Program-made: the position numbers and the translations under genes
Source of the DNA: Aureimonas fodinaquatilis
GTDB lineage: Bacteria > Pseudomonadota > Alphaproteobacteria > Rhizobiales > Rhizobiaceae
Length of the DNA: 64,000 nt
Assembly (NCBI RefSeq): GCF_008369445.1
Contig: NZ_VTWH01000005.1
Location: 186,001-250,000 of the forward strand
Reading direction: 5' to 3'
The notes under the pieces: model-generated
Seen by the model: only the letters and a program-made list of their open reading frames with translations
What the model was told of the DNA's origin: nothing
Databases searched by the model: none
Shown: piece by piece, positions 25,907 through 52,071 of the stretch
Layout: each line of letters starts with the position of its first letter
How positions within the stretch are numbered: the first letter of the stretch is position 1

Positions 25907-26704
25907 TCAGGTTTGATCGGGTGCAAAAACCTGCGAGAAGCTGCGCCCGTCAGTATCGCGAGCATAGACCTTGAACTCGCCGGCAGGCCCGTCATAAGTG
26001 AAGCGGAAATTGGGGTCTTCGGAAATTGATATGCCGCCTTCCATGGACAGGAACGGGTGGTTTTCGAACTCAATGTTCAGCTCGGATACAAAGTGCGCGG
26101 GTATATAGAGATGTGAAATCTGGTCGCGCTGCAGGCCCGAATTGTTTGGATGTCGGATCATCAATTGTGCAACGTGGCGATCCGTCATGCCAGTTTCCAG
26201 AAATCGCCGCAGCCTCATCTGCCCAAGCTGCGCCGTAGATTCAGCCGGGTTGCGGGCGGCCGGAGCAGCGCAACCGCCGGATGCTTTCACATAGTGACTG
26301 GCCATGTAGAGCTGGCCGTTTTCATCTTCGCCCACAACGCGGATATTGCTGTAAGCATTGACGCGCAATCGCGTTTCAATGGTGGTTATCCGTGCGTTGT
26401 TATCCAGCGTAAATGTGGCCGCAACCGGGGCCGGATTTTCATCAACAATCAGTGTCAGAGTGCGAAAACGGGTGTCTGCATCCAGAGAAATCCTGACAGG
26501 TACCATGGCTGGGTCTGGAGCACGGTCGGGCGCTTCCAAGGTCAGGATGTTCGTTTCTTCCCGCACGGACTTTTCGCCGAAAAGATCACTTTTCAACTGC
26601 ATCCATGACTCAGTGGAAGGAGCCTGCGCCAGTGCAGGGCCGGCAAATGCCATGGCGCACGCGCAGAAAATCAGGGTCAGCTTGAGCGGAACACGCATTG
26701 TCAT
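25907..26704 (-). CDS. Quinoprotein dehydrogenase-associated SoxYZ-like carrier protein
   Basis: The 265-residue secreted protein has a signal peptide (LTLIFCACAMAFAGPALAQA). A SoxY-like domain (about 25-160) ends in the Cys-bearing swinging-arm-type motif SGGCAAPA. A SoxZ-like domain follows (about 165-265, ending KVYARDTDGRSFSQVFAPDQT). In sulfur oxidation SoxYZ carries substrate on the SoxY Cys. This fused form belongs to a family found beside PQQ dehydrogenases and a SoxH-like hydrolase, where its cargo is unknown. The start is placed at the ATG 26704; an ATG two codons later is equally possible. The metallohydrolase gene lies just upstream on the same strand. Confidence 0.85.
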   Translation of the reverse strand: MTMRVPLKLTLIFCACAMAFAGPALAQAPSTESWMQLKSDLFGEKSVREETNILTLEAPDRAPDPAMVPVRISLDADTRFRTLTLIVDENPAPVAATFTLDNNARITTIETRLRVNAYSNIRVVGEDENGQLYMASHYVKASGGCAAPAARNPAESTAQLGQMRLRRFLETGMTDRHVAQLMIRHPNNSGLQRDQISHLYIPAHFVSELNIEFENHPFLSMEGGISISEDPNFRFTYDGPAGEFKVYARDTDGRSFSQVFAPDQT

Positions 26705-26762
26705 TGTCCCAATCCGGGGTGCCCGCTGCGCAGTCTGCGCCAATTTTCAATGATAGGGAAGA

Positions 26763-27767
26763 CTATTCCCATTCCAGTTCACTATAGGCGGCAGATGCAT
26801 TCTGTCCCTGATAATCGTCAAACAACAGCCATTTGCTACGCTCGGATGCCGCTGCCTCCGTTTGCGCCAGACCCAGCGATTGCCCTTGCGAGATGAAGGC
26901 GCGTGTATCATCTGCCAACTGGTTGAGGAATTGCTTCTGCGCATCAAGGCTGGTGTGCCAGTCTTCGGAAACCTGGCCATGGCCGGGTACGACGCGGTCT
27001 GCGGCAATGCCGGCAAGCTCCGGCATGATGGCAAGCCAGCCCTTCAGGCTGCCGTCCAGCGTCGGGACATGGCGAACAAACAGGAGATCACCGGCAAACA
27101 AGGTCCGGGTCCGGGTATCCAGCACCGTCAGGTCATTGTCGGTATGAGCGGTCGGCCATGCCTGAAGAACCAGCGTTCGATCTCCGAGGTCGATTTCCAT
27201 TCGGTCATCAACACCAATATCGGGCAAGGCGAATTCAAATTCTGCCACCGGCTTTGCTTGTCTGCGCGCTTCCAACTCTGCGTAAAACTGTTTTCGTGCT
27301 TCCATGGACGCGGCAAAATTGTGATGCGCCACAAGCTCAGCGCCCTCCGCGGTCAGGCTGGCAGCCCCCGCACTGTGATCGGGGTGCATGTGGGTTAGAA
27401 TAACATGGCTGATCGGCAGGTCCGTAACACTGGCCACCGCCGCGCGAATCTTCAAGCCAAATTCCGGCGAGCCGCCGCTGTCGATCACTGCAACCGAAGA
27501 GTTGCCGATCACAAATCCGCTATTGGATGTGTTGCCATCGGTTTCAGGCGTGGGCAGTGCAATATCACCGATATGTGCATAGACCCCCGGTGCGATGAGA
27601 GCAAAGGCCGGTTCGCCCGAACCTGCAAGGGCTGGCACATGCAGCACGAGTGCAAATGCGACAAGGACAAAGCCCGACGCTGCTTGAATTCGGGAAAAAA
27701 TCCTCGTCGCAAATTTGAACGTTTTTAAAATAGAATCACTCCATCTAAACGTGTGGTTGAGGAACAA
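26763..27767 (-). CDS. Quinoprotein relay system zinc metallohydrolase (SoxH-related)
   Basis: The product of up to 334 residues has an N-terminal hydrophobic signal (FVLVAFALVLHVPALAG) and a metallo-beta-lactamase fold. Metal ligands are visible in THMHPDHSAG, then AHTDND and VVPGHGQ. SoxH-related hydrolases of this type accompany the SoxYZ-like carrier next to PQQ alcohol dehydrogenases; the reaction is not established. The start is uncertain: the frame begins with TTG at 27767 and no ATG precedes the signal peptide. It is divergent from xoxF. Confidence 0.84.
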   Translation of the reverse strand: MFLNHTFRWSDSILKTFKFATRIFSRIQAASGFVLVAFALVLHVPALAGSGEPAFALIAPGVYAHIGDIALPTPETDGNTSNSGFVIGNSSVAVIDSGGSPEFGLKIRAAVASVTDLPISHVILTHMHPDHSAGAASLTAEGAELVAHHNFAASMEARKQFYAELEARRQAKPVAEFEFALPDIGVDDRMEIDLGDRTLVLQAWPTAHTDNDLTVLDTRTRTLFAGDLLFVRHVPTLDGSLKGWLAIMPELAGIAADRVVPGHGQVSEDWHTSLDAQKQFLNQLADDTRAFISQGQSLGLAQTEAAASERSKWLLFDDYQGQNASAAYSELEWE

Positions 27768-28038
27768 ACATCGGTTGAATCAGCACGTCACAATGACGGT
27801 CGAGCCAAAATCAGCAAGATTGCATTTCACGGCAAAAGAAAATTCAAAACCAAATTTCAATAAATACATAATTGTTTGGCGAATTGCCCGCCATGAAGCT
27901 TTCACATCACTGGGAATTTATATTTGAATGCTGAAGAATTACAAAACAATACCATTACACGCACATCGTAAGTGATATTTTGTGCAGCGCAATACATAAC
28001 TATATGGCAATGCAACATTAAACTTTGCTTTTTGATAC
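27768..28038. other. AT-rich intergenic region upstream of xoxF promoter
   Basis: This is the first part of a 508-base stretch without a convincing gene between the divergent metallohydrolase gene and xoxF. It is clearly more AT-rich than its surroundings. It is the likely site of the metallohydrolase promoter and of upstream regulator binding for xoxF. A small 70-codon frame at 27715-27927 has no ribosome-binding site and no recognisable product. I see no perfect operator palindrome. Confidence 0.5.
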
Positions 28039-28067
28039 TTGCACAATCAGAAAACTAAGCCTAGCTT
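28039..28067 (+). promoter_or_regulatory. Candidate xoxF promoter
   Basis: A -35-like TTGCAC (28039-28044) and a -10-like TAGCTT (28062-28067) are separated by 17 bases. The predicted transcription start, seven to eight bases downstream, falls at about 28074-28075. That is exactly where a long-range RNA stem begins (see the leader entry). The match to consensus is only moderate. Confidence 0.4.
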
Positions 28068-28074
28068 AATCCTT

Positions 28075-28197
28075 GGTTTCCGGCTTCAAGTCTGCCGATG
28101 TTGGGAGCGTCGGCGGTTCTCGAAGGCCTCGGTAGGGCGAAATTTAACGGTGCCCACCAGGACCCCTATTGGCGGTCGTGACACGCTGCCGGAAACC
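28075..28197 (+). ncRNA. Candidate structured RNA leader of xoxF (unidentified class)
   Basis: The ten bases GGTTTCCGGC at 28075-28084 are perfectly complementary to GCCGGAAACC at 28188-28197, closing a 123-base domain. Inside are a 7-bp hairpin (28094-28100 with 28108-28114, loop of seven) and a second stem of seven pairs with one bulged A (28131-28138 with 28152-28158, 13-base loop). A further hairpin (GTGCGGT / ACCGCGC) lies downstream at about 28222-28241, before the ribosome-binding site at 28265-28270. The domain starts at the predicted transcription start. I do not recognise it as FMN, TPP, cobalamin or SAM riboswitch, or confidently as 6S RNA. A cis-regulatory role for xoxF is inferred. 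Confidence 0.45.
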
Positions 28198-28275
28198 GTC
28201 CCCATCAGGAATAGCGATTAACGTGCGGTTGTTCGACCGCGCGCAGCCTGCTTACGCTTGTTTTGGGAGGAAACC

Positions 28276-30123
28276 GTGCTGAAATCAACAACGAAGGCGG
28301 TCATCGCCTCGGCGATGCTGCTTGGTCTGGGTCAGGCCGCCAATGCCAATGATGCCTTGGCAGAATTGGGCAAAGATACGGCAAACTGGGTGATGCAGAC
28401 CGGCGACTACGCCAATACCCGATATTCGCCGCTCAAGAACATCAATAAGGAAAATGTCGGAGATATGCAGGTTGCGTGGTCATTCTCGACTGGCGTTCTG
28501 CGTGGTCATGAAGGCGGACCACTGATTATTGGCGACACAATGTACGTCCATACGCCTTTCCCCAATATCGTTTATGCGCTGGATTTGAAGGAAGATGGCG
28601 CAATCAAATGGAAATATGAGCCACGGCAGGATGCCAGTGTCATCCCCGTCATGTGCTGTGACACGGTCAACCGTGGCGTGGCCTATGCACCGGCAGACGG
28701 CGACCAGCCGGCAAAAATAATCCTGCATCAAGCTGATACAACTGTTGTGGCATTGAATGCCGAAACGGGTGAGCAGATCTGGTCAGTCAAGAATGGCGAT
28801 GCCGCAAAAGGGGAAACGGGCACAGCCGCACCGGTGGTCATCAATGACAAGGTTTTCATCGGCATTTCCGGTGGTGAATTTGGCGTTCGTGGCTCTTTGA
28901 CAGCCTATAATCTGAGCGATGGTTCACAGGCATGGCGGGCTTACTCCACAGGGCCAGACGCTGAAATGCTGTTTGACCCTGAAAAGACCATGGAGTTGGG
29001 CAAGCCGGTTGGAGCCGACTCTTCGCTGAATTCCTGGGAAGGGGATCAGTGGCAGATCGGTGGCGGCACCACTTGGGGTTGGTTTGCCTATGATCCGGAA
29101 TTGAACCTGATCTATTACGGGTCCGGCAACCCATCGACCTGGAATCCATCTCAGCGCCCTGGCGACAACAAATGGTCGATGGCCATTTTTGCTCGCGATG
29201 CGGACACTGGCATGGCCAAATGGGTCTATCAGATGACGCCCCATGATGAATGGGATTTTGACGGCGTCAACGAGATGATCCTGGCGGATATTCCGGTGGA
29301 TGGTCAGGAAAGAAAGGCACTCGTGCACTTTGACCGCAACGGTTTTGCCTACACGATGGATCGTGAAACCGGCGAATTGCTTGTGGCCAAGAAGTATGAC
29401 CCGGTTGTAAACTGGGCTACGGAAGTGGTGATGGACAAGAATTCTGATCAGTATGGCCGCCCGCAAGTGGTGGATCAGTACTCAACGGAATTCAACGGCG
29501 AGGATGTCAACACAACCGGCATCTGCCCTGCAGCTCTTGGAACAAAAGACCAGCAGCCAGCGGCTTTCTCGCCGGATACCGGACTGTTCTACGTGCCGAC
29601 AAACCACGTCTGCATGGATTATGAACCATTCCGTGTGGCTTACACCGCGGGGCAGCCTTATGTGGGCGCAACCTTGTCGATGTATCCTGCACCCAACAGC
29701 CATGGCGGCATGGGCAATTTCATTGCCTGGGATGCTGGCACCGGCGAAATCAAATGGTCTCTGCCAGAAAAATTCTCTGTCTGGTCAGGCGCCTTGGCCA
29801 CAGCCGGCAATGTGGTGTTCTACGGAACGCTGGAAGGCTACCTCAAGGCGGTTGATGCCAACACGGGTGAAGAGCTTTACAAGTTCAAGACTCCGTCAGG
29901 CATTATCGGCAACGTCACCACATACGAGCATGATGGTCAGCAATATATCGCTGTTCTGTCTGGTATCGGTGGCTGGGCCGGTATCGGACTTGCGGCTGGC
30001 CTGACAGACGCCAATGACGGTCTGGGTGCTGTGGGTGGTTACGCTGCACTGTCACGCTACACCGCCCTGGGCGGACAGCTGACTGTGTTCACCGTTCCGG
30101 ACCAGACAGCCGCTAACAATTGA
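28276..30123 (+). CDS. xoxF: Lanthanide-dependent methanol dehydrogenase XoxF (PQQ enzyme)
   Basis: XoxF oxidises methanol in the periplasm with PQQ and a lanthanide ion, passing electrons to XoxG. The 615-residue precursor has a signal peptide ending near QAANA and the eight-bladed propeller tryptophan-docking repeats. The adjacent Cys127-Cys128 pair lies in VMCCDTV. Metal ligands by family alignment are Glu201 (SGGEFG), Asn285 (YYGSGN), catalytic Asp327 and Asp329 in [11 protein letters not shown]. The extra Asp329 (Ala in calcium-type MxaF) is the lanthanide signature. The start is GTG at 28276 with GGGAGG five bases upstream. An intrinsic terminator follows directly, then xoxG and xoxJ. 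Confidence 0.96.
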
Positions 30124-30190: not shown

Positions 30191-30299
30191 AGGTCTGGAC
30201 CGTTTCATGCGATCTCATGATCGGCAAAAGCTCCAGCTCCTTGGTTCGTCGCATTGTCCCGACGTTGAAGCGACACCGCTGCAACCGGAACTGCTCCAG
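30191..30299 (-). repeat. Dispersed double-hairpin repeat, copy 5 (inside the xox operon)
   Basis: On the minus strand it begins CTGGAGCAGTTCCGGTTGCAGC at 30299. It shows GACAATGCGACGAACCAAGGAG and the second-hairpin tail GATCATGAGATCGCATGAAAC. It occupies most of the xoxF-xoxG spacer between the terminator and xoxG. Confidence 0.75.
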
Positions 30300-30330
30300 A
30301 AAAGCAACGCATTCACTCAGGGAATACGCA

Positions 30331-30924
30331 ATGATAAAGCAAATGACGGCCCTGACTTCTGTTCTGTTTGTCATGACCGGACTGGCATGGGCACAGGCAC
30401 CTGCAACCCCACCGGAAAACAGCGCTGCACCTGCAACGGATCAGCCGAAAGTTTCCGCCAACCCTTCGAAAGATACTGCCACGAACGGCAATGAGGGCAC
30501 ACAGGGGGAGGCCGCCAAATGGGTCGATTCCGCCGATGTGCCGACTTATCATATTGAGCCGGATGGCACGGCGGACTTCTATTCCTGGCGCGGCTATAAA
30601 AAATACACCGCCAATTGTTTCCAGTGCCACGGGCCGGATGGAATGGGGTCTTCCTTTGCCCCCAATCTGCTCGATTCACTCAAGCGGATGGACTATTATG
30701 AGTTCACCGGAATTGTGGTGGGTGGCCAGCAGAATGTCTGGAACACCAGCGGCAATTCCGTCATGCCCGCATGGGGCGAAGACAAGAATGTCATGTGTTA
30801 TCTGGACGCCATCTATGTTTACCTCAGAGGACGCGCTGATGGGGTTTACGGCCATGGGGAGCCCAAGCGTCCGCAGCCAAATGACGAAGCGCGCGCGGTG
30901 GAAAACCAATGTCTCGGCTTCTGA
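30331..30924 (+). CDS. xoxG: Cytochrome c electron acceptor of XoxF (cL-type)
   Basis: The 197-residue periplasmic cytochrome accepts electrons from XoxF. It has a signal peptide (ALTSVLFVMTGLAWAQA), then a ~45-residue Ala/Pro/Asn/Gly-rich linker. A single heme motif CFQCH (Cys96, Cys99, His100) is followed by GPDGMGSSFAPNL, with a probable axial Met145 in VMPAWGE. The linker is longer than needed for a plain class I cytochrome. The ATG at 30331 follows AGGGAA. The frame is open upstream through the repeat copy, which is not coding. It overlaps xoxJ by 16 bases. Confidence 0.92.
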   Translation: MIKQMTALTSVLFVMTGLAWAQAPATPPENSAAPATDQPKVSANPSKDTATNGNEGTQGEAAKWVDSADVPTYHIEPDGTADFYSWRGYKKYTANCFQCHGPDGMGSSFAPNLLDSLKRMDYYEFTGIVVGGQQNVWNTSGNSVMPAWGEDKNVMCYLDAIYVYLRGRADGVYGHGEPKRPQPNDEARAVENQCLGF

Positions 30925-31757
30925 TGTTGACAGCCTGTGTTGCCTTGCTGGCTGTGGTGCCGGCAAGGGCTCAGGATCGCGAATTCGGTGGGGCCATTGA
31001 GCTGGTCGATCCAGACGTGCTGCGGGTTTGCGCAGATCCCAACAGCTTGCCTTATTCAAACGAGGCAGGTGAGGGCTTTGAAAACGAACTGGCGAATTTT
31101 CTGGCGGAAAAACTTGGCCGCAAGTCGGTAAGTTACACCTACTTTCCACAGGCGACCGGCTTTGTGCGGATGACGTTGGGCCTGCACCGCTGCGACATTA
31201 TCATGAGTTACCCGCAGGGCGATGAGCTGGTGCAGAACACCAATGCCTATTATCGCACGGCCTATTCGCTGGTTTACCCCAAGGGATCGGACCTTGATGG
31301 TGTGGAAACGCTGGAAGATCCGCGCCTGAAGGACAAGGTCGTGGGCGTGGTAGCGGGCACACCGCCGGCCACATATCTGGCCAAGGCCGGCTTGATCGGC
31401 AAGGCCAAGGGCTATCAGCTGATGGTAGACACGCGGCTGGAAAATTCTGCCAAAAACATGATCACCGATCTGAACGAAGGGGAAATTGACGCGGCTGTTC
31501 TGTGGGGCCCTCTTGCGGGCTATTATGCCAGAGAGTCCGGTCGTGATTATGCGGTGGTGCCGCTTTTGAAAGAGCCGCGTGGCCCTGCAACTGTTTTCCG
31601 TATCACCATGGGGGTTCGCCCGTCTGATCAGGAATGGAAACGCACACTGAACCGCACGATTGCGGAAAATCAGGATGCTATCAACGACATCCTGTTAAAA
31701 TATGGGGTGCCGCTGCTGGATGAGCAGAACCGCCTGATTTCCAGCAAGGAAAACTAG
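30909..31757 (+). CDS. xoxJ: XoxJ, quinoprotein dehydrogenase-associated periplasmic binding protein
   Basis: The 282-residue protein has a signal peptide (LMLTACVALLAVVPARAQ) and a family 3 solute-binding fold: DPDVLRVCADPNSLPYSNEAGEGFENELANFLAEKL, later GEIDAAVLWGPLAGYYAR. Its structure class resembles ABC binding proteins, but family members sit next to XoxF and XoxG without a cognate permease and are thought to help activate or mature the dehydrogenase. The 16-base overlap with xoxG indicates coupled translation. Confidence 0.92.
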   Translation: MSRLLMLTACVALLAVVPARAQDREFGGAIELVDPDVLRVCADPNSLPYSNEAGEGFENELANFLAEKLGRKSVSYTYFPQATGFVRMTLGLHRCDIIMSYPQGDELVQNTNAYYRTAYSLVYPKGSDLDGVETLEDPRLKDKVVGVVAGTPPATYLAKAGLIGKAKGYQLMVDTRLENSAKNMITDLNEGEIDAAVLWGPLAGYYARESGRDYAVVPLLKEPRGPATVFRITMGVRPSDQEWKRTLNRTIAENQDAINDILLKYGVPLLDEQNRLISSKEN

Positions 31758-31759
31758 CG

Positions 31760-32296
31760 ATGTGCTGGCGCTGGGTCGGGCTGCTCCTGTTGCTCAGCAC
31801 ACCGGCTTTGGCGCAGACCATTCCAGAGCCGCAGAGCTATCGCGTAGAAGAGTATCGAGCGCCGACGCCCGCGACTTTACAAGGAGCCAAGGTGCTGGAT
31901 ACGGCAGAGGCCGCCGCCTTGTGGAAAGCCGGCTCAGCTAAATTTGTTGATGTCATGCCGCGCGCGCCAAAACCTGCTAACCTGCCGAAGGGCACGATCT
32001 GGCGGCCTGCCGAACGGCGTGGTATCCCCGGTTCAATCTGGCTGGTGGATACCGGCTATGGCGACCTTGCCCAATCGGTAGAGAGCTATTTTCAGCACGG
32101 GTTGCAGACGGCTACGAGTTCGAACCTTGCGCAGCCTGTTGTGTTTTACTGCCAGCGAAATTGCTGGATGAGCTGGAACGCCGCCCGACGTGCTGTGCAC
32201 TTGGGTTATACGCAGGTGAAATGGTATCCCGAGGGCACAGATGGGTGGGCTGAGGCGGGCTTTCCGCTGGAGGTGCATGAGCCGTCAACGCTATAG
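31760..32296 (+). CDS. PQQ-dependent catabolism-associated Cys-Trp motif protein (rhodanese-like)
   Basis: The 178-residue protein has a signal peptide (VGLLLLLSTPALAQ). A rhodanese-like domain carries the family motif FYCQRNCWMSWNAARRAVHLGY near residues 131-152. The family is known as the CXXCW protein of PQQ-dependent catabolism clusters; here the spacing between the two Cys is three residues (Gln-Arg-Asn). A redox, sulfur or metal role is unproven. It starts two bases after xoxJ, so it is the fourth gene of the xox operon. Its TAG stop overlaps the TAG of the convergent gene in the hexamer CTATAG. Confidence 0.86.
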   Translation: MCWRWVGLLLLLSTPALAQTIPEPQSYRVEEYRAPTPATLQGAKVLDTAEAAALWKAGSAKFVDVMPRAPKPANLPKGTIWRPAERRGIPGSIWLVDTGYGDLAQSVESYFQHGLQTATSSNLAQPVVFYCQRNCWMSWNAARRAVHLGYTQVKWYPEGTDGWAEAGFPLEVHEPSTL

Positions 32297-39854: not shown

Positions 39855-39953
39855 AGACAGTTTCAGGCGATTTCATGATCGCTCAAAACAGTGCAACTCT
39901 TTGCTTCGCCGCATTGTCTTGTCGCTGACGCTGTTGCGCTTCAATGAGAAATG
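39855..39953 (-). repeat. Dispersed double-hairpin repeat, copy 8
   Basis: On the minus strand from 39953 it reads GGGCATTTCTCATTGAAGCGC...GCGACAAGACAATGCGGCGAAGC, then the second hairpin GATCATGAAATCGCCTGAAAC. It lies in the divergent region between the binding-protein gene and the H4MPT island. Confidence 0.8.
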
Positions 39954-40097
39954 CCCAAGCCCCCAGCAAGTCGGAAATACTGGCGGGTGACAAGGCGATT
40001 TTTTCCCGTTTTGCGTTTGGGGGGCATCTTGCCGCTGGCACTGGTGGCATGGGCAGGGCAAGATGGCGACAACTGCCGAAATGTGAAGAGACCGCCC

Positions 40098-41141
40098 GTG
40101 GCAAAAATGCTGGTAAGTGTGCGCAATGTGGATGAAGCGGTGCTGGCGCTCCACAATGGCGCGGATATTATAGACCTGAAAGAGCCTGGGCAGGGCGCTT
40201 TGGGGGCTGTTGGCGCGGAAATGCTGGCGGCTGTGCAAGCAGAAATTGCGGGGCGCAGGCCAGTTTCCGCCGTGGCTGGAGATCTCCCGATGGACCCGGC
40301 GGTCATAACGCCTGCAGTGCAGGCAAGGGCGGCGGCAGATTTTGTCAAAATCGGCTTTTTCCCGGCAGAGCGTGAAGCCTGGGAGGCAGTTTGTGCCGAT
40401 CTGGCCGCAAAGACGCCTGGCATTGCCAAAGTGGCAGTGTTTTTTGGTGAGGATGGGGTGGACCCCGACTTCATGCCGATATTGCATCAGGCAGGCTTCA
40501 CGGGAGCCATGCTGGACACCCGTACAAAAGATGGCCGTCGTCTGCTGGACCACATGTCGCTGGCAGCGTTGCGGCATTTTGTTGATGCTGCCAGCGCTGC
40601 GGGTTTGCAAACCGGGCTTGCCGGCTCGCTGGAAGCACCAGATGTCGCGCGGTTGCTGCCACTTGCGCCAGACTATTTGGGGTTCCGCGGTGCCTTGACG
40701 GCGGGTGAGCGCGCGGGTGAGCTCGCTGCGGAAAAGGTCAAAGCCATGTCAGCGCTGTTCAAGCCGATTATGGTCAACGAGGCCAGCCAGACAGACCGCG
40801 TGTTCATCCGCGATTTTGTGCAGAATATGGAAATTGGTGCCTATGGCTTTGAGCGCGGGCGCAAGCAGCAGGTGCGGTTCACTATCGAGGCGGATGTTCT
40901 GCGCGTATCCCGCCAGCCGGAAAGCATGGGCGATGTCTATTCTTATGATGTGATGATGGACGCAGTTGCGCAGATCGCAGAGCGCGGCCACACCGATCTG
41001 GTTGAAACTTTGGCCGAAGAACTGGCAGCAACCATTCTGGCAGACTCGCGTGTGGTTGAAGTCACGGTGCGGGTGGAAAAGCTGGACCTTGGTCCTGCTT
41101 CCGCAGGCATCGAGATTCGCCGCAAATGCGAAAGACTATGA
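40098..41141 (+). CDS. MfnB-like (5-formylfuran-3-yl)methyl phosphate synthase fused to a dihydroneopterin aldolase (FolB) domain
   Basis: The N-terminal ~225 residues match the MfnB (DUF556) family: MLVSVRNVDEAVLALHNGADIIDLKEPGQGALGAV, AADFVKIGFFP, GAMLDTRTKDGRRLLDHM. MfnB condenses two glyceraldehyde-3-phosphates into the furan precursor of methanofuran/methylofuran. The C-terminal ~120 residues (DRVFIRDFVQNMEIGAYGFERGRKQQVRFTIEADV...) are a FolB-type domain, which cleaves dihydroneopterin in pterin synthesis. One protein therefore may serve both cofactors of the island. The start is GTG at 40098 with AAGAGA upstream; an ATG three codons later is the alternative. Confidence 0.88.
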   Translation: MAKMLVSVRNVDEAVLALHNGADIIDLKEPGQGALGAVGAEMLAAVQAEIAGRRPVSAVAGDLPMDPAVITPAVQARAAADFVKIGFFPAEREAWEAVCADLAAKTPGIAKVAVFFGEDGVDPDFMPILHQAGFTGAMLDTRTKDGRRLLDHMSLAALRHFVDAASAAGLQTGLAGSLEAPDVARLLPLAPDYLGFRGALTAGERAGELAAEKVKAMSALFKPIMVNEASQTDRVFIRDFVQNMEIGAYGFERGRKQQVRFTIEADVLRVSRQPESMGDVYSYDVMMDAVAQIAERGHTDLVETLAEELAATILADSRVVEVTVRVEKLDLGPASAGIEIRRKCERL

Positions 41142-41309
41142 TGCACTGCAGCATAGAAGTGATCGGCTAAGTTATTGCAGTTCGGTGGAAAAAGGCGAAA
41201 GAGTGGCAGCTAATCGGTTATCCAAAACCGTGGGTTAACTTTTCCGGGTCGAGCCAGCCTGCTTTGCATGCTTTGCTTCCCGAGCATTTGTGCTGAAGGA
41301 GTAGCCGAT

Positions 41310-41966
41310 TTGAAAGAGCTGCTGATTATCAAGGTAGGTGGTAGCTCGATTTCTTCTCCCGACCTGAAGGTGTGGATTGAAAGTATCGAGCAAACGATTC
41401 GACCGGTGGTGCTTGTGCCCGGTGGGGGGCCGTTTGCAGACACTGTGCGACGATATCAGAAAGTTATCGGCTTTGATGATGATGCAGCGCACCATATGGC
41501 AATTCTGGCGATGGAACAGTTTGGCCGTGCAATTGTGAGCCTAGGCAACCGACTGGTGGCAGTTGCCACCAAGGAAGCAATTCGCAAGGCATTGTCTGAA
41601 AACAAGATACCGGTGTGGATGCCGGCCAAGCTGGCGCTGCGTGCGGGAGAAATTGGCCGAAACTGGAGTGTTACCTCAGACAGCCTTGCCGCCTGGCTGG
41701 CTGGCCAGTTTTCCGGTTGCTCGCTGTGCCTGATCAAACAGCTTGATCTGCCTGAAGGTTCAACCTTGCATGCGATTTCCAGAGCCGGGGTGGTGGATCA
41801 GGCGTTTGCACGGCTGCTGCATGAAGAAACCGCGGTTTACATTGCCGGGCCGGGTGATTTGCGGCTGGCCGGACGCAGGCTGGCCATCGGCAATGTGCCG
41901 GGGCACGCAATTGTGCGCGATGACAAATCGGGCAATGGCGGATCGGTGGCCGAAGCGGCGGAGTAG
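41310..41966 (+). CDS. Amino acid kinase superfamily protein, MfnE-like
   Basis: The 218-residue protein has the amino acid kinase fold: LLIIKVGGSSISSPDLKVW, VVLVPGGGPFADTVRRYQ, and a late nucleotide-site segment CLIKQLDLPEGSTLHAISRAGVVD. In archaea MfnE of this superfamily phosphorylates the aminomethylfuran phosphate in methanofuran synthesis. Location between MfnB and a DHPS-like gene supports an equivalent role. No ATG fits; a TTG at 41310 with AAGGAG upstream is the best start. No clear promoter is seen in the 168-base gap upstream. Confidence 0.78.
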   Translation: MKELLIIKVGGSSISSPDLKVWIESIEQTIRPVVLVPGGGPFADTVRRYQKVIGFDDDAAHHMAILAMEQFGRAIVSLGNRLVAVATKEAIRKALSENKIPVWMPAKLALRAGEIGRNWSVTSDSLAAWLAGQFSGCSLCLIKQLDLPEGSTLHAISRAGVVDQAFARLLHEETAVYIAGPGDLRLAGRRLAIGNVPGHAIVRDDKSGNGGSVAEAAE

Positions 41967-41974
41967 GCGGTCAG

Positions 41975-43411
41975 GTGCAGATGCAGGGGCCGTTTTCGGG
42001 GCAGAAACTGCTTTTTCTGACTGGGCATCTTGCCTTGCAGCGTTTGCACAAGGTGCTTGCCGAATTGCCGGAGCCGGATTTCACCCACACAGTGGTGGAT
42101 ATTGGCGTTAAAGTTGCAGCGCTGATGACCGGCGAAATCATTGAACGGCGGCTGCCTCGACCGGTAGACGCCACGCTGGTTGTTGTGCCGGGTCGTTGCC
42201 GCGCCGATCTCGACCGTTTGGCCAGGCATTTCGGCCTGCCTTTTGTGCGCGGGCCGGACGAGATTGCTGACTTGCCGGAATTTCTGGGCCGCAAAGGGGG
42301 CAAGCCGGATCTGTCGCAGCACGATATGCGCATTTTTTCCGAAATTGTGGATGCCTCTGCGTTGACACCGGGCGAAATCTTGCGGCGCGCGCTGGCCATG
42401 CGGGCTGCAGGCGCGGATGTTATCGACCTTGGCTGCCTGCCGGATACGCCATTTCCGCATCTCGAAAAGTCAATCGCCCTTTTGAAACAGGCGGGGCTGA
42501 CTGTCAGTGTGGACAGTGCCGACCGCAATGAGCTGCTGCGTGCCAACCGCGCCGGGGCGGATTATCTTCTGAGCCTGCATGAGAACAGCCTGGACGTGGC
42601 GTTGGAGGGAAATGCGGTTCCAGTGCTGATACCGGAAGAGCCGCGCGACCTGGACTCTCTGCTGCGGGCGATGGACAAAGCGGAGGCAATGGGGCTGAAT
42701 TTCATTGCAGACCCGGTTCTTGACCCGATACATTTTGGTTTTTCCGCATCGCTGGCACGCTATCACCGCTTGCATGAACTGCGTCCGGGCGTCGATGTGA
42801 TGATGGGGACGGGCAATCTGACAGAGCTGACGCAGGCCGACACGTCCGGCATTACGGCAATGTTGCTGGGTATTGCCTCGGAACTGTCGATTAACAATCT
42901 TCTGGTTGTCCATGTCAGCGCGCACACAAGAGCAACTTTGCAGGAACATGACCTCGCGCGGCGCATCATGTTTGCTGCAAAGGCGGATGGCGCATTGCCA
43001 AAGGGCTATAGTGCGGGCCTTTCACAGGTTCACGATATCAAACCCTTTGCCAACACCTCTGCCGAAATTGCCGAACAGGCCGCCATGGTTCGTGATCGCA
43101 ATTACCGGATCGAAACTGCGGAAGACGGCATTCACCTCTACACGCGGGGCATGCATGTGGTTGAGCAGAACGCGTTTGCAGCTTTCCCGCATCTTGAAGT
43201 CAAGGATGATCCTGCACATGCCTTTTACCTTGGAGCAGAATTGCAGCGGGCTGAAATTGCCTGGCGGCTTGGCAAAAGATTTGCACAGGACGAGCCGTTG
43301 AATTTTGGCGTGGCAACACCGGAGGATGCGCAGGAAGATCGCACGAGGCTGGCAGAAGCGGGGCACACCTTGAAGGCCGGAAAAGACAAGTCCGGGAAGG
43401 ATGAGGCATGA
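41975..43411 (+). CDS. DUF6513 dihydropteroate synthase-like protein of the H4MPT island
   Basis: The 478-residue protein has an N-terminal Rossmann-like part (LLFLTGHLALQRLHKVLAELP...). A TIM-barrel, pterin-binding-type domain follows from about residue 125: RIFSEIVDASALTPGEILRRALAMRAAGADVIDLGCLPDTPFPHLEKSIALL, GLTVSVDSADRNELLRANRAGADYLLSL. Homologues occur in methanogens and H4MPT methylotrophs and are thought to act in H4MPT synthesis; the step is not proven. GTG at 41975 or ATG at 41981 are both plausible starts. The last four bases overlap the DUF447 gene. Confidence 0.83.
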   Translation: MQMQGPFSGQKLLFLTGHLALQRLHKVLAELPEPDFTHTVVDIGVKVAALMTGEIIERRLPRPVDATLVVVPGRCRADLDRLARHFGLPFVRGPDEIADLPEFLGRKGGKPDLSQHDMRIFSEIVDASALTPGEILRRALAMRAAGADVIDLGCLPDTPFPHLEKSIALLKQAGLTVSVDSADRNELLRANRAGADYLLSLHENSLDVALEGNAVPVLIPEEPRDLDSLLRAMDKAEAMGLNFIADPVLDPIHFGFSASLARYHRLHELRPGVDVMMGTGNLTELTQADTSGITAMLLGIASELSINNLLVVHVSAHTRATLQEHDLARRIMFAAKADGALPKGYSAGLSQVHDIKPFANTSAEIAEQAAMVRDRNYRIETAEDGIHLYTRGMHVVEQNAFAAFPHLEVKDDPAHAFYLGAELQRAEIAWRLGKRFAQDEPLNFGVATPEDAQEDRTRLAEAGHTLKAGKDKSGKDEA

Positions 43412-43986
43412 TCCGCGAAGTGATTTTGACCACGGTTAGCAGCGCGGGCGAGGCACATATCGCACCTTTGGGATTGGTGCAGGCGCACGAGAGTGACAAC
43501 CGCCATTGGATCATAGCGCCGTTTGCGCCATCCCGAACACTCGACAATATTGCAGTCAGCCGCATTGCCATTGCCAATTATACCGATGATCCGTTGATCT
43601 TTGCCGGATGCCTGACCGGGCGCAAGGACTGGCCACTAACGTCCGTGCCGGGTGTGGCAGTGCCGAGGCTGAGTGCGGCGCTGGCGCATGATGTGTTGCA
43701 AGTGGAGGCGGTGGAAGACCACGCACAAAGGCCGCGCTTCACCTGCGTCATTGTTCAATCCGCCACGCATGCACCGTTTACGGGCATGAACCGGGCGCGC
43801 TCGGCGATATTGGAACTGGCAATTCTGGTTTCACGGCTGCACATCCTGCCAAAGCAAAAGGTGCAGGCGGAAATTGCCTATCTATCAATCGGGCTGGAGA
43901 AAACCGCCGGCCCGAACGAGCAACTGGCGTGGCAATGGCTGATGGAGCGGGTGAACGCATTTTACGGCACAGATGGCCTGAAGTGA
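43408..43986 (+). CDS. DUF447 family protein of the H4MPT island
   Basis: The 192-residue protein starts MIREVILTTVSSAGEAHIAPLGLVQ. It contains RIAIANYTDDPLIFAGCLTG, FTCVIVQSATHAPFTGMNRARSAILELAILVSRL and a helical C terminus, matching the DUF447 family with a split-barrel flavin-binding-like fold. The family occurs in methanogens and H4MPT-using bacteria; its function is unknown. The ATGA overlap with the preceding gene shows translational coupling, and it ends the plus-strand cofactor unit. Confidence 0.82.
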   Translation: MIREVILTTVSSAGEAHIAPLGLVQAHESDNRHWIIAPFAPSRTLDNIAVSRIAIANYTDDPLIFAGCLTGRKDWPLTSVPGVAVPRLSAALAHDVLQVEAVEDHAQRPRFTCVIVQSATHAPFTGMNRARSAILELAILVSRLHILPKQKVQAEIAYLSIGLEKTAGPNEQLAWQWLMERVNAFYGTDGLK

Positions 43987-44074
43987 TCTTTCAATCAGGT
44001 CAGGCAATCCGACCCTTTGATCTGACGTCTCGTCTTGCCGTTGAGATGATCATGTTTCAACAAGAAATGCTTCA
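43985..44074 (-). repeat. Dispersed double-hairpin repeat, copy 9
   Basis: On the minus strand it begins TGAAGCATTTCTTGTTGAAAC at 44074 and runs to GGCAAGACGAGACGTC and a degenerate second hairpin. The TGA is the stop codon of the hydantoinase-like gene. It separates two convergent genes. Confidence 0.75.
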
Positions 44075-45091
44075 GGTCTGGATCGCTGCCAGCGCTACAG
44101 CCGGCGCGGCGCGACTGGCCGCTTCCCGCAATGTGGCCCGGCAGTCTGCAAGATCCGCAAAATCGACGACGCCCCTGTCCAGCCGCGCTGCCAGACGGCG
44201 CAGCAATGGTCTGCCGGAGCCCGCCAGGATCAATGGTGCATCTGCTGCAATGTCCCCGCGCGACAGAACCTGCAACGCCGCATCGTGAATTCGGCGAAGC
44301 TGCGCTTCGGCAAAGGCTCCGGCAACAGCGGTCCATTCTTCCGACGTGGCATCATCCGCGTCATGGCCCAGCATTCGCGCCAGCCTTGCACGGCTTGCTG
44401 CCTGTGATTTGTCCCGCCCGTCGGCGCTGGGCATCTGGTCGTCTGTCTCGTCAAAATTGCCGATCAGCCTCTGTGCATCGGCCATGGTGGCAAAATGTTC
44501 TGCCATAACCGGGGCAGCCCTGCCCCTGAATGGCACATTCAGAGCAACAGCCATCAGGCTGGTGCGTGTAAAGCCCTGATAAACCAGCTCTCCAGCCGCC
44601 AGCCGTTCAGCATCCGTGTAGCCGATGTTGCAGATTTGCCCTCCCGAAACCGGCACAATGTCGGTGGTGGTGGAGCCCATATCCACCAACAGGCCCTGTT
44701 GCAGCCTGCTGGCTACCAGTGCGGCACTGGCATGCCAGTTGGCGGAACCAACCAGCGCGGCAAACTCTGTTGCCCTCTGTGGCGGAACAAGGCCCTTTTC
44801 ACCCGCATAAATCGCCAGATCCGGGCCCAGTCGCCTTTCCAGGCAATGCGTCAGCTGCTGCACACCCGCCAGCCGGTCAGGAAAAATATCTGCCAGTTCG
44901 CCGGTCATTGTCAGCCTGTGAGCTGCCACCGGGCCAGTCTGTGCAAGAATGTTGGTCAGGGCGGTTTCAAGATGGTCCAACCCCAGCCACAAGGGGGAGG
45001 GCTCCTGCCAGACTCCGACAATTCTTCCTTCGTCATGCAAGGCGGCTTTCAAATGCGCGCCGCCGACATCCCACCCCAATCGTCTTGTCAT
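44072..45091 (-). CDS. H4MPT-linked C1 transfer pathway protein (hydantoinase/oxoprolinase-like)
   Basis: The 339-residue protein has an actin/hexokinase-like ATPase fold: MTRRLGWDVGGAHLKAALHDEG, GLLVDMGSTTTDIVPVSGGQI, LILAGSGRPLLRRLAA. This is the family annotated as H4MPT-linked C1 transfer pathway protein, restricted to methanogens and H4MPT methylotrophs. A role in methylofuran or H4MPT synthesis is likely, but the reaction is not certain. The ATG at 45091 follows a GGGGGG ribosome-binding site; an upstream in-frame extension of 20 residues is rejected. Its TGA stop is inside a repeat copy. Confidence 0.85.
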   Translation of the reverse strand: MTRRLGWDVGGAHLKAALHDEGRIVGVWQEPSPLWLGLDHLETALTNILAQTGPVAAHRLTMTGELADIFPDRLAGVQQLTHCLERRLGPDLAIYAGEKGLVPPQRATEFAALVGSANWHASAALVASRLQQGLLVDMGSTTTDIVPVSGGQICNIGYTDAERLAAGELVYQGFTRTSLMAVALNVPFRGRAAPVMAEHFATMADAQRLIGNFDETDDQMPSADGRDKSQAASRARLARMLGHDADDATSEEWTAVAGAFAEAQLRRIHDAALQVLSRGDIAADAPLILAGSGRPLLRRLAARLDRGVVDFADLADCRATLREAASRAAPAVALAAIQT

Positions 45092-45161
45092 GTCCCCCCA
45101 ACCCGACAATTCGCAATCGTCGCAGCTTACATCAGCCCTTCGCCGCCGCATACCGCATTAC

Positions 45162-45263
45162 AGAGCCTGTCAGGTTATCTTGATCACCCTGACAGGCTCT
45201 AACTCCTTGTTCTGTCGCATTGTCCTAAGTTGACGCAATTTCGCTTCAACCGGAAATGCTCTA
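45162..45263 (-). repeat. Dispersed double-hairpin repeat, copy 10 (complete)
   Basis: On the minus strand it begins TAGAGCATTTCCGGTTGAAGCG at 45263, followed by GGACAATGCGACAGAACAAGGAG. It ends with a near-perfect second hairpin, AGAGCCTGTCAGGG (45185-45198) with CCTGACAGGCTCT (45162-45174). It is one of the best copies for deriving the consensus. Confidence 0.85.
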
Positions 45264-45286
45264 AAGGGGCCATTGCGGCCCCTTTT
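45263..45286. terminator. Hairpin with terminal T/A runs near the fae 3' side
   Basis: A perfect 9-bp stem AAAGGGGCC (45263-45271) with GGCCCCTTT (45277-45285) has a five-base loop and a short T-run on the plus strand. It abuts the repeat copy and lies about 100 bases beyond the fae stop. It could act as a weak bidirectional terminator. Confidence 0.5.
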
Positions 45287-45389
45287 GTGGTGGTTGAATG
45301 GCAATCTACTGATAGCCAAAAATGGCGGCCAATCGCCGAAGAAGCCCGGCCTTCATCGCCGGTTGCTCTTCCACGGGATGGTCTCTTGT

Positions 45390-45899
45390 CTAGGCACCGG
45401 CAAACGGATGGTGCGCTGCGCCCTTCTGCGACACAACTTCAGCGGCAGTTGGCTTGCCACTGACCGCCCGTTCAATGGATTCAAGCGTCGCGCGGTAATT
45501 GTAATCGCGAATTTTGGCGTCATCCTCTGCCTCCCAGTGGATGAACACGCCAACGCAAATGAACAGATCATCCGCCTCATCTGCCGGAATGATGCCCTTT
45601 TCCACCGCATCTGCCACGGCGCGTGCCACAGCGGTTTGTGCCGGGCCAAACATCTGAACTGCCTGTTTGGCGCCCTTGATCGTAACCTTGTTGAACATGA
45701 CGGTGTTTGGCTTGGTGGCCAGATTGGGTGCAATCACCGCCAACAGCGATGTGAATCCATCCTTGTTGTTGGTCAGTGAGTTGCAGAAGGCGATTTCAGC
45801 GGCTGAGCCGCGTGGGCCGATGATGAGGTCGATATGCGCAACTTCGTTGCCCTCGCCCACCAAAGACTCTCCCACCAGCACTTTGTTGATTTTTGCCAT
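45390..45899 (-). CDS. fae: Formaldehyde-activating enzyme
   Basis: Fae condenses formaldehyde with H4MPT to methylene-H4MPT, the entry to the dissimilatory pathway. The 169-residue protein is almost a consensus Fae: [38 protein letters not shown] with the catalytic His at residue 22, then [43 protein letters not shown] and [17 protein letters not shown]. The ATG at 45899 follows GAGAGGA. The 282-base region upstream, before the next gene, must hold its own promoter, as expected for a highly expressed protein; no consensus pair was clear. Confidence 0.98.
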
Positions 45900-46181
45900 G
45901 ATCAATTCCTCTCCCTGATTAAACTGTTTTTCGCATGCCCATGGCCGGGTTTTCCCAGCCAGATTCGTTTCCGGTCCGGTAAAGGCCGAATATGCGCTGC
46001 AAGAGTCTGTCGTATGGTGAAGCTGTCATGCCGACCCCCGCAACCCGGCCGCATACCGGCCTGGCTTTTGACTGCCCTTGTTATCGGCGTCCCGCGGGGG
46101 ACCGGTTTGCCGGACAGTTGCATTGAGACTGACCCTACTGATTGCGCCAGTCAATCCTTTTAAGCAAAGATATCTCCTTAA

Positions 46182-47018
46182 TCAGAAGGGTTTGCCGCAA
46201 ATTCTCAGCAAGTGCGCTGCAAAAACAGTTGCAACTGTCAGATCAGCCGAGGTGCCTGGGTTGATGCCGCGCGCCTTCAGGTCCGCGTCAAATGCCAAAA
46301 GAGCGCAATGGCGGGTTTCAGGATCAACCGTCATGACCAGTTTTTCATGAAACCTGCGAAACTCCATTTGTATCGCCTGGGCTATGTCCGGTCCAAATTT
46401 GCGCTGGATGTGGCTGTCATGAAACCGCCCGGCAAAACCAAGGTAAACCCGCAATACGTCTGGCAAAGCATCTGGCGTGGTCAGGTCTGTCATGCCCTGC
46501 GCAAAAACATCATCAAAGTCATTGCAATATTGCGCAGCAATTCTGTCACGCCCTGCGGCCAGCGCCATGGCTTGCAACAGGCTCATGCCGGGTGGGTGAC
46601 GCACGTCCTGCTCGGCCACCTGACCCAGACCGCCGGGGGCTGCCAGCGCAATCGCCTGAAAGGTCAACGTGGCGTCATCCATCGTCAGGTCCTGCAGCAC
46701 TGCATGCAAGGAGACTTGCAGAGACGTGGTGTCTGCGCGCTCTGCTGCCATCGCCAGGGGCGCACACAGCAGCAAAATTCCAAGATTGCTGTTCTGTCCC
46801 ACAGTCTGCTGCGTGGCGGCCACCGCGCCCAGGATCCGCTGCCCCAATGGTTGGCCCGGCGCTGTCACAAATGGAGCAGAAGCTGCCGCACTGGCTGTAA
46901 AAACCGCCACATCCATGCCGTGACCAGCCGCAAAGCGGTGCACATTGCCGGGTTTGAGCACATCCAGTTCAGACTGGCATGCCGCAATATATGCGGACTG
47001 AATTTGCGCTGCCAACAT
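46182..47018 (-). CDS. Triphosphoribosyl-dephospho-CoA synthase-like (CitG family) protein of the H4MPT island
   Basis: The 278-residue protein has the CitG/MdcB fold: ELDVLKPGNVHRFAAGHGMDV near residues 16-36 and NSNLGILLLCAPLAMA. C-terminal segments are KLVMTVDPETRHCALLAFDADLKARGINPGTSADLTVA. CitG homologues are a fixed member of H4MPT islands, proposed to transfer a ribosyl-phosphate group in cofactor synthesis (related to orf5 of Methylobacterium). No citrate or malonate decarboxylase genes are near, so the classical CitG role is unlikely. Its ATG shares one base with the TGA of the ATP-grasp gene upstream. Confidence 0.85.
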   Translation of the reverse strand: MLAAQIQSAYIAACQSELDVLKPGNVHRFAAGHGMDVAVFTASAAASAPFVTAPGQPLGQRILGAVAATQQTVGQNSNLGILLLCAPLAMAAERADTTSLQVSLHAVLQDLTMDDATLTFQAIALAAPGGLGQVAEQDVRHPPGMSLLQAMALAAGRDRIAAQYCNDFDDVFAQGMTDLTTPDALPDVLRVYLGFAGRFHDSHIQRKFGPDIAQAIQMEFRRFHEKLVMTVDPETRHCALLAFDADLKARGINPGTSADLTVATVFAAHLLRICGKPF

Positions 47019-47923
47019 CAGACGGCACGCGCAAAAGGCGAAATGCGCGCAGGCAGGTTGGCTATCAGGTCCCCTGCACGAATTGCGGCTATGTCTATGC
47101 CGGTGGCGCGTTGCAGCCCCGTCCAGGCGGGCATCGAGTTGACCTCAATCACCTGTGCGGTTCCGTCCACGCCCTGCAGAATGTCCACTCCGCAAAAACT
47201 GGCGCCAACAGCCGCTGCTGCTGCCACTGCCAGCCCGCTCATGTCGGCATCGGCAGTTATGGCCACGCCTTGTGCCCCCTGCTTGATATTGGTGATCCAG
47301 CTTGCCGAAGAGCGTCGCATCATGGCCGCCACCACCCGGCCGTTGGAAACCATGAGGCGATAGTCGCTCCAGAATCCGTTTCGGTGGCAACCGGCAAATT
47401 CCTGCAGATAGTACACGCCGCTGACAGCGTCGGGTTCCGGAAGGTCTGCGGATGTTTCAACCAGAGCAATGCCCTTGCCCTGCGCGCCGAACAGCGGCTT
47501 CAGAACCAGAGGCACGGGCGACTGACGCAGAAAAGCTTCAGCTTCTGCCCGCGTTTCCACCACCTTGCTGCGCGGAGATGGAATTTTTGCCTGCGCCAGA
47601 AGAAAGCTGGTCATGGATTTGTCCGTGCAGCATTCCACCGCCCGCGCAGTGTTGGAAACCGGCACGCCCAGCGCTGACAATGCGTGCAATATCGACAAGC
47701 GGCGGGTCACGGCTTCAAAGCTGCCGCCATTCATCGTGCGCAGGCAAACCGCATCCGGCAGCTCTTCGCCAAAATGCGGCAGAACCAGCCCATGGCGCGC
47801 AGTGCTGTCAAATGCCACATCGGCCAGTTCAAACATAAGGGCGTCTGCGTTTTGCGCCGAAAAAGCCCGCACGAGCTGGCGGGCATGGCGGTCTCTGCTG
47901 GCAGACAAAAGGGCAATGCGCAT
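47018..47923 (-). CDS. RimK-type ATP-grasp ligase of the H4MPT island
   Basis: The 301-residue protein has an ATP-grasp fold: RAVECCTDKSMTSFLLAQAKIPSPRSKVVET, PLVLKPLFGAQGKGIALV (ATP-binding loop), YYLQEFAG and metal-binding FCGVDILQGVDGTAQVIEVNSMPAW. RimK-like ligases such as MptN add glutamate to H4MPT in methanogens, so this is a candidate for tailoring of the methanopterin side chain. The substrate is inferred. It is five bases downstream of mch and overlaps the CitG-like gene by one base. Confidence 0.85.
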   Translation of the reverse strand: MRIALLSASRDRHARQLVRAFSAQNADALMFELADVAFDSTARHGLVLPHFGEELPDAVCLRTMNGGSFEAVTRRLSILHALSALGVPVSNTARAVECCTDKSMTSFLLAQAKIPSPRSKVVETRAEAEAFLRQSPVPLVLKPLFGAQGKGIALVETSADLPEPDAVSGVYYLQEFAGCHRNGFWSDYRLMVSNGRVVAAMMRRSSASWITNIKQGAQGVAITADADMSGLAVAAAAAVGASFCGVDILQGVDGTAQVIEVNSMPAWTGLQRATGIDIAAIRAGDLIANLPARISPFARAV

Positions 47924-47928
47924 TGTGC

Positions 47929-50917: not shown

Positions 50918-50940
50918 GGAATGGTCCTTAACCGAAACAC

Positions 50941-51918: not shown

Positions 51919-52071
51919 GAGTGCTCCTGCAATCGCGTGCCCGTTCGCAGTATGTTGCAAAACAACCTGTGAGCCAAGAGGTATTGACAACATTGCAGTG
52001 CAGCATGGTTTTCGCTTTAAAAGCTGTACTGGATCGGGCTAAAAACATGCGGGTGCCAGAAAGCGGGTCGT

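Follow-up and report, generated by a model that had tools for sequence, protein, structure and literature searches.

A conserved structured RNA upstream of xoxF in Hyphomicrobiales is a candidate for a new riboswitch class

A conserved folded RNA precedes the lanthanide methanol dehydrogenase gene xoxF in many Hyphomicrobiales; it has no counterpart among the catalogued RNA families and is a candidate for a riboswitch, so far undescribed, that would control this gene. The element was analyzed in a 64,000-nt stretch of the Aureimonas fodinaquatilis genome (contig NZ_VTWH01000005.1, positions 186,001–250,000; referred to below as the window, whose numbering is used throughout), where the original prediction had placed a cis-acting RNA controlling xoxF. 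As far as the structured leader is concerned, this prediction stands, and on firmer ground than at first: covariation, gene context, strand, promoter-like spacing and the absence of an Rfam match give strong support to a putative new structured cis-acting RNA at this site. The sensing of a ligand is the interpretative part. We consider it probable that the structured 5′ leader of xoxF constitutes, from about position +1, the aptamer of a new riboswitch class controlling translation. The features identified in the window are listed in Table 1.

XoxF, the enzyme that the carriers of the element share, requires PQQ and a lanthanide, and its product is formaldehyde. The xoxF gene of the window shows 72–74% DNA identity to three plasmid genes annotated as XoxF5. 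A GTG codon (28276) was preferred over TTG (28258) as the probable start because of the ribosome-binding site. In the flanking regions (25907–27767 and 30217–32296), which resemble the neighborhood of Sagittula xoxF5, the minus strand carries SoxYZ-like and metallo-beta-lactamase-like genes, and the plus strand genes of the cytochrome c, periplasmic binding and rhodanese-like kinds. The window also contains a methylotrophy island (39951–56448). This includes an FhcB homolog (52087–52902; TIGR03129, E 5.3e-30, under the curated cut-off), followed, up to 56448, by frames resembling the remaining Fhc subunits, and minus-strand frames that we take to encode Fae-like (45390–45905), Mch-like (47929–49110) and MtdB-like (50015–50944) proteins.

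The perfect outer stem of the original prediction is present, GGTTTCCGGC (28075–28084) being the exact reverse complement of GCCGGAAACC (28188–28197) over 10 bp, and the first of the two enclosed hairpins (28094–28114) is real: it corresponds to P2, all six pairs of which show two-sided changes among 79 aligned members. The second hairpin (28131–28158) was seen in the minimum-energy fold, but the comparative data favor in its place a stem, P3a, with an inner arm of variable length. A further hairpin, expected just before the ribosome-binding site, was recovered at 28222–28243 in the minimum-energy fold of this one leader. The leader RNA is about 120–160 nt long in the members seen.

The folding energy of the whole leader (28068–28280) is unimpressive (z −2.02; 7 of 200 shuffled sequences at least as stable), and that of the domain 28075–28197 reaches z −3.17 (2 of 200). 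Folding energy by itself is too weak to carry the claim; the domain is raised above chance because relatives conserve it with compensatory changes.

Table 1. Features of the xoxF leader and gene in the window.
Feature	Position	Strand	Basis
Promoter-like TTGCAC (28039–28044), 17-nt spacer, TAGCTT (28062–28067)	28039–28067	+	Sequence; pattern in relatives
P1, 5′ strand, GGUUUCCGGC	28075–28084	+	9/10 P1 pairs changed on both sides, 79 sequences
Junction J1/2, UUCAAGUCU	28085–28093	+	CUUCMA in 56/79 members
P2 hairpin (28094–28099 with 28109–28114), GGGA in loop region	28094–28114	+	Covariation
Junction J2/3, UCGNA, near-invariant	28120–28124	+	77/79 members
P3: basal stem P3a, GGCC (28125–28128) with GGUC (28174–28177); variable arm inside	28125–28177	+	Covariation
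Junction J3/1, GUGACACGCU, near-invariant	28178–28187	+	GUGACAC in 77/79, GUGACACGCUG in 61/79 members
P1, 3′ strand, GCCGGAAACC	28188–28197	+	Sequence; covariation
Tail UCCCCA, candidate partner of the P2 loop (pseudoknot) or Shine-Dalgarno	28199–28204	+	Modest support
Ribosome-binding site, UGGGAGGA	28264–28271	+	Precedes GTG 28276; from sequence
xoxF (XoxF5-type PQQ methanol dehydrogenase)	28276–30123	+	TIGR03075, 753.8 bits

Comparison by blastn of the region 28039–28290 with 61 genomes (its own and 60 relatives) revealed matches in nine genomes. Within the genus, the leader was found in 4 of 20 genomes (85–86% identity), the other 16 giving no match. Among four further genomes there were two real matches, one in another family of the order (L006) and one in another genus of the family (L007); although of low identity, each has retained GTTTCCGGCTTCAAG at one end of the element and GGTCGTGACACGCTGCCGGAAA at the other, and xoxF is directly downstream. 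Matches L008, L009 and L010, with different genes and without the P1 partner strings, were rejected as chance.

When 397 genomes of the order were searched with a first covariance model (R1, built from 6 sequences), 17 matches were obtained, and 15 of these precede xoxF. The two with no xoxF downstream (L024, E 4.7e-4; L027, E 0.0071) were taken as chance; the score of L024 equals that of true members. With a second model (R2, built from 12 sequences) there were 34 matches in the 397 genomes, and all 27 with E ≤ 5.2e-4 were placed directly before xoxF, in ten families according to the genome labels. Three weaker matches (L166–L168), read among the seven above this value, were considered chance. 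Since these genome searches, in which eight candidates were scored per genome under strict filters, can miss diverged members, the upstream regions of xoxF were scored separately (see below).

The pattern GGCTTCMA, 70–100 nt, TCGTGACACGCTG was also sought in a species-level genome collection and retrieved at least 114 stretches, of which R2 confirmed 108 among the matches listed (76/80 and 32/34). It did not confirm L040, L043, L067, L097, L117 and L122 (Bacteroidota and one Blastocatellia MAG), and these were rejected as chance. The confirmed records belong to genera that we take to be members of Hyphomicrobiales: Mesorhizobium, Aureimonas, Aurantimonas, Fulvimarina, Jiella, Phyllobacterium, Rhizobium, Ensifer, Neorhizobium, Ancylobacter, Xanthobacter, Methylocapsa, Enterovirga and others. 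Downstream genes were called by blastp to the window XoxF (E 1e-5). XoxF was downstream in 96 of the 108 confirmed named loci, or 96 of the 104 in which the downstream gene is readable, four loci (L072, L033, L101 and L124) being cut by the locus end; the 96 include L073, whose readable XoxF frame starts 459 nt downstream. Seven of the 108 copies, all in Xanthobacter, precede a membrane-protein-like gene, and one is located upstream of fhc genes in Methylocapsa acidiphila.

In the Xanthobacter loci (L032, L035, L039, L049, L053, L068 and L108), the element lies about 200 nt before the gene of a protein of about 280 aa, which by eye has a secreted, outer-membrane or barrel-like appearance. No Pfam/NCBIfam match was obtained for the one such protein tested; homologs are present on nine plasmid records, with the annotation “transporter” in five. 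In M. acidiphila (L056:6068–6193), a ribosome-binding site and a 27-codon frame come after the element, and fhcBA comes next; the short frame may represent a leader peptide or a remnant. The start of fhcB, a gene named on the basis of 163.5 bits against a cut-off of 327.8, is 316–340 nt 3′ of the element.

For the analysis of covariation, 79 members were aligned (sequences of the named and first-found set that were under 92% alike, plus 27 diverged ones). The alignment was fitted to the covariance model, so the following counts lean towards its structure. A plain MAFFT alignment of the P3 region was misaligned, and covariance-model alignments were used instead; the same compensatory changes are visible in plain MAFFT alignments. 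Nine of the 10 pairs of P1 (91.0% of cells paired), six of six in P2 (81.5%) and three of four in P3a (96.8%) have changed on both sides, with GGCC/GGUC, GGUU/AACC and AGUC/GACU as examples of the compensations in P3a. Overall, 89.5% of the 1532 cells of these three helices pair, compared to 70.5% in shuffled data. The covariation score was 0.558, compared to 0.241 after shuffling (none of 500 shuffles reached the observed value) and to a maximum of 0.156 when the 3′ partners were slid by 1–3 columns. Covarying pairs, whose absence would have counted against the original prediction, are thus present in homologous xoxF leaders.

A purpose-built tree-aware null (FastTree tree; 60 null alignments, in which substitutions were placed anew on branches drawn at random) was applied to the same question. 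The six best of 8128 column pairs were all model pairs, as were eight of the best nine. No more than three pairs outscored every one of the 60 null alignments; the null is heavy-tailed, and individual pairs from rank four downwards therefore exceed E 0.05. An extra pair, 28090–28118 (E 0.33), may extend P2, and another, 28132–28170 (E about 11, not significant), hints at a stem P3b inside the P3 arm, in an uncertain register. Two unpaired strings are fixed in 77 of the 79 members, namely UCGNA (exceptions L020 and L044) and GUGACAC (exceptions L020 and L196). The alignment contains 197 G-U cells compared to 30 A-C cells, which indicates that the RNA is read from the xoxF strand. The element combines two hallmarks of riboswitches. 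It has a conserved aptamer-like domain, in which the helices covary and unpaired nucleotides are fixed, and, judging from sequence context, it occupies a 5′ leader position on the same strand as a gene of coherent function.

The promoter-like hexamers noted originally, TTGCAC and TAGCTT with a 17-nt spacer, were read in the sequence as described, the latter ending 7 nt before the stem; the pair was not listed by a consensus promoter scan. A looser pattern, TTGM-N15-19-YTA, picked after the sequences had been seen, is present within the 60 nt upstream of 55 of the 79 members, compared to 4.7±2.2 for base-shuffled sequences. Among these 55, the spacer is 18 in 46, and YTA lies 12–15 nt before P1 in 48. 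This near-constant spacing suggests that P1 begins at about +1, and transcription is thus likely to start near 28075, at the base of P1. A simple terminator scan detected no plus-strand terminator-like site in 27700–28400, which argues for control on translation rather than on termination.

A match to an unrelated RNA family, which would also have counted against the original prediction, was not obtained: nothing in the window reached the gathering score of an Rfam 15 family. The same result was obtained for 20 loci with members, and none of seven diverged members matched at E 1. The sole Rfam model scoring at E up to 5 on 28039–28290 was the SAH riboswitch (RF01057; 14.5 bits, E 1.8). This score is far under the gathering score of 37, and the match spans 28091–28162 only, with P1 and the GUGACACG string outside it; the leader was not assigned to this family. 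Like riboswitches with translational platforms, as these are generally known, the xoxF leader has a multi-stem domain at the putative +1, fixed junction nucleotides, covarying stems and a tail that might mask the ribosome-binding site, whereas no riboswitch in Rfam 15 corresponds to it in sequence core and gene context.

The motifs Methylobacterium-1 and Rhizobiales-2 of Weinberg 2010 (PMC2864571) overlap with the xoxF leader in order or genus, but their Rfam models (RF01712 and RF01723) give no match to it, and neither xoxF nor methanol is mentioned in the main text of that paper. If the ligand were a lanthanide ion, the Li, Na and Mn metal-ion riboswitches would be the nearest kind; such of these families as Rfam has showed no sequence relation to the leader. 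In PMC12530212, riboswitches and xoxF are reported in one organism, the riboswitches (c-di-GMP, cobalamin, TPP and SAM) being placed before other genes, and PMC11852156 treats lithium riboswitches and XoxF separately. Among the papers listed in searches of an open-licence library, none has a title or abstract on a leader RNA or a riboswitch that belongs to xoxF; subscription papers and preprints lie mostly outside this scope, and a prior description is possible. If a ligand is proven, the xoxF leader would represent a new class within a familiar type of regulator.

In the mechanism that we propose, P2 and P3 branch off a junction closed by P1, and UCGNA, GUGACACG and the top of P1 would form the probable binding pocket. 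In the ligand-bound state, the UCCC tail just after P1 would be held by the GGGA of the P2 loop, leaving the Shine-Dalgarno free; in the ligand-free state, the same tail would pair with the Shine-Dalgarno. In the minimum-energy fold of the leader in the window, CCCA of the tail (28201–28204) pairs with UGGG (28264–28267), and UCCU (28070–28073) with AGGA (28268–28271) of the ribosome-binding site. The tail is also complementary to the GGGA of the P2 loop.

The Shine-Dalgarno pairing was examined in 70 of the 79 members (six were dropped because the element is not before xoxF, and three had no usable start; a few of the assigned starts may be misplaced). Tail–Shine-Dalgarno pairing averaged 0.29, compared to 0.17 for shuffled tails (Wilcoxon p 7e-4), and exceeded 0.3 in only 29 of the 70; total Shine-Dalgarno pairing was unchanged (0.70, compared to 0.69 with shuffled tails). 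Loop–tail complementarity was 10.81, compared to 10.11±0.26 when tails were swapped between distant members (the highest of 300 swaps gave 10.92). Among 85 sequences, loop GGG and tail CCC occur together in 59, the loop string alone in 16, the tail string alone in none and neither in 10 (Fisher p 1.7e-6, kinship ignored), and the compensations include UGGGGAU with AUCCCCA and CGGGGA with UCCCCG. Beyond GGG/CCC, the length of the loop–tail helix was no better than in swapped pairs (92 of 500 reached it). The competition between the pseudoknot and pairing of the ribosome-binding site, for which there is modest support, is a reasoned model and not a result.

A protein search of the 397 genomes of the order identified at least 130 XoxF homologs (≥60% identity), 127 of which were examined (G037, one of G353 and the partial G230 were left out, and the upstream piece of L228 had 203 bases only). 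The element was found before 45 of the 127: 27 from the R2 search, 17 that reached 20.8 bits or more on the sense strand in a position-by-position scoring of 100 upstream regions, and L181, recognized by a broader model (R3) and the CGUGACAC string. It was not found before the other 82, among which are six with a possible altered form (described below). Since 82 of the 127 homologs lack a copy, xoxF does not depend on the element and can work without it.

A class-wide search with R2 (385 genomes) gave six matches. Two of these are real, i.e. the one in the A. fodinaquatilis genome and one in another member of Hyphomicrobiales, and the remaining four (L143–L146) were judged by eye from the sequence to be chance. 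Nothing below E 0.05 was found when 14 XoxF loci of other alphaproteobacterial orders and two Rhodobacterales plasmids were scored, and the xoxF region of a Sinorhizobium medicae plasmid gave no match at E 1. A 16-bit match in Paracoccus (L270), about 2.4 kb from the gene, was rejected as chance. No copy was thus found outside the order in the 385 genomes, the 14 loci and the two plasmids.

The comparative data would also fit a structured leader whose binding partner is not a small molecule but a protein, either an RNA-binding one that responds to C1 compounds or metals or a factor associated with the ribosome, with the fixed junction strings as the protein site and control exerted on translation or mRNA stability. 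The apparent limitation to one order is common for protein–RNA pairs, but long invariant unpaired strings in a junction of several stems are, as a rule, more typical of aptamers than of protein sites, and we regard a protein regulator as rather unlikely. A role devoid of sensing, in which the leader is a structural 5′ stabilizer or a translation enhancer of a highly expressed mRNA, would agree with an RNA starting at the putative +1, and highly expressed methanol dehydrogenase mRNAs could benefit from it. Such a role is improbable: the unpaired strings hardly vary among diverse sequences (77 of 79 keep them), which goes beyond the needs of a stabilizer, and 82 of the 127 xoxF homologs manage without the element.

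An attenuating leader or a ribozyme, such as a self-cleaving leader, might likewise display a compact junction, a possible pseudoknot and invariant strings, but Rfam contains no ribozyme matching the element, and we give this explanation very little credence. The original prediction had also named a free-standing small RNA, e.g. 6S RNA, as an alternative, and a 6S or trans-acting RNA placed before xoxF by chance would account for the promoter-like site at the 5′ end of the element. It is nevertheless disfavored, to the point of being highly improbable: among the 108 confirmed named loci, 96 have the element upstream of xoxF and on its strand (four of the remainder being unreadable), the region 27700–28400 has no plus-strand terminator-like site, and no Rfam family matches; neither the window nor 20 member-bearing loci reached the gathering score of a 6S covariance model.

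If the leader is an aptamer, as we prefer to read it, we lean towards a ligand that would report the usefulness of XoxF (a lanthanide or PQQ) or towards a C1 metabolite common to the carriers. The more specific proposal, that the aptamer senses a lanthanide ion (or PQQ) and so couples XoxF synthesis to its own cofactor supply, is possible but doubtful. A homolog of formylmethanofuran dehydrogenase B (E 1e-20 or better) is encoded in 20 of 29 element-bearing genomes, although none of the homologs reaches the curated cut-off, and among 14 control genomes only the two methanogens match. Since 9 of the 29 have no such homolog, a ligand made solely by the H4MPT pathway is unlikely; the occurrence of the element tracks xoxF rather than the H4MPT genes. 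The fhc context in M. acidiphila is weak evidence for an H4MPT-derived ligand, because the 27-codon frame, with its own ribosome-binding site, intervenes before fhcB.

Beyond a few model methylotrophs, it is an open question how lanthanides, PQQ and C1 compounds affect xoxF expression. A Paracoccus profile (PMC12848317) likewise lists this question as open. With a lanthanide or PQQ, riboswitch ligands would gain a new type; the leader would then be a natural RNA sensor of an f-block metal, a missing piece of the lanthanide switch in xoxF bacteria and a ready biosensor for rare earth recovery. The RNA is short, discrete and transferable, and is found before xoxF in many rhizobia, Aureimonas-like, Xanthobacter-like and methylotrophic bacteria, which makes in vitro tests feasible.

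Two groups of divergent leaders were observed. At six loci under one genus label (L199, L207, L215, L216, L230 and L233, in genomes G425, G153, G351, G232, G210 and G378), a P1/P2-like start is visible by eye, with a loop–tail complement of 6–8 bases (best, AGGGAUAG with CUAUCCCU), and the junction core, including GUGACAC, is absent. R3 gave 11–19 bits for three of them and nothing for the others, and they were excluded from the 45; these leaders may represent an altered-specificity or degenerate variant. Twelve diverged members under one family label (L161, L162, L177–L180, L186, L187, L191, L192, L201 and L209) have a different tail, RGUCCAA, followed by an AT-rich sequence. In most of them the tail CGCARGUCC can, by eye, pair with GGACUGCG just before the ribosome-binding site, which suggests that these members use another expression platform.
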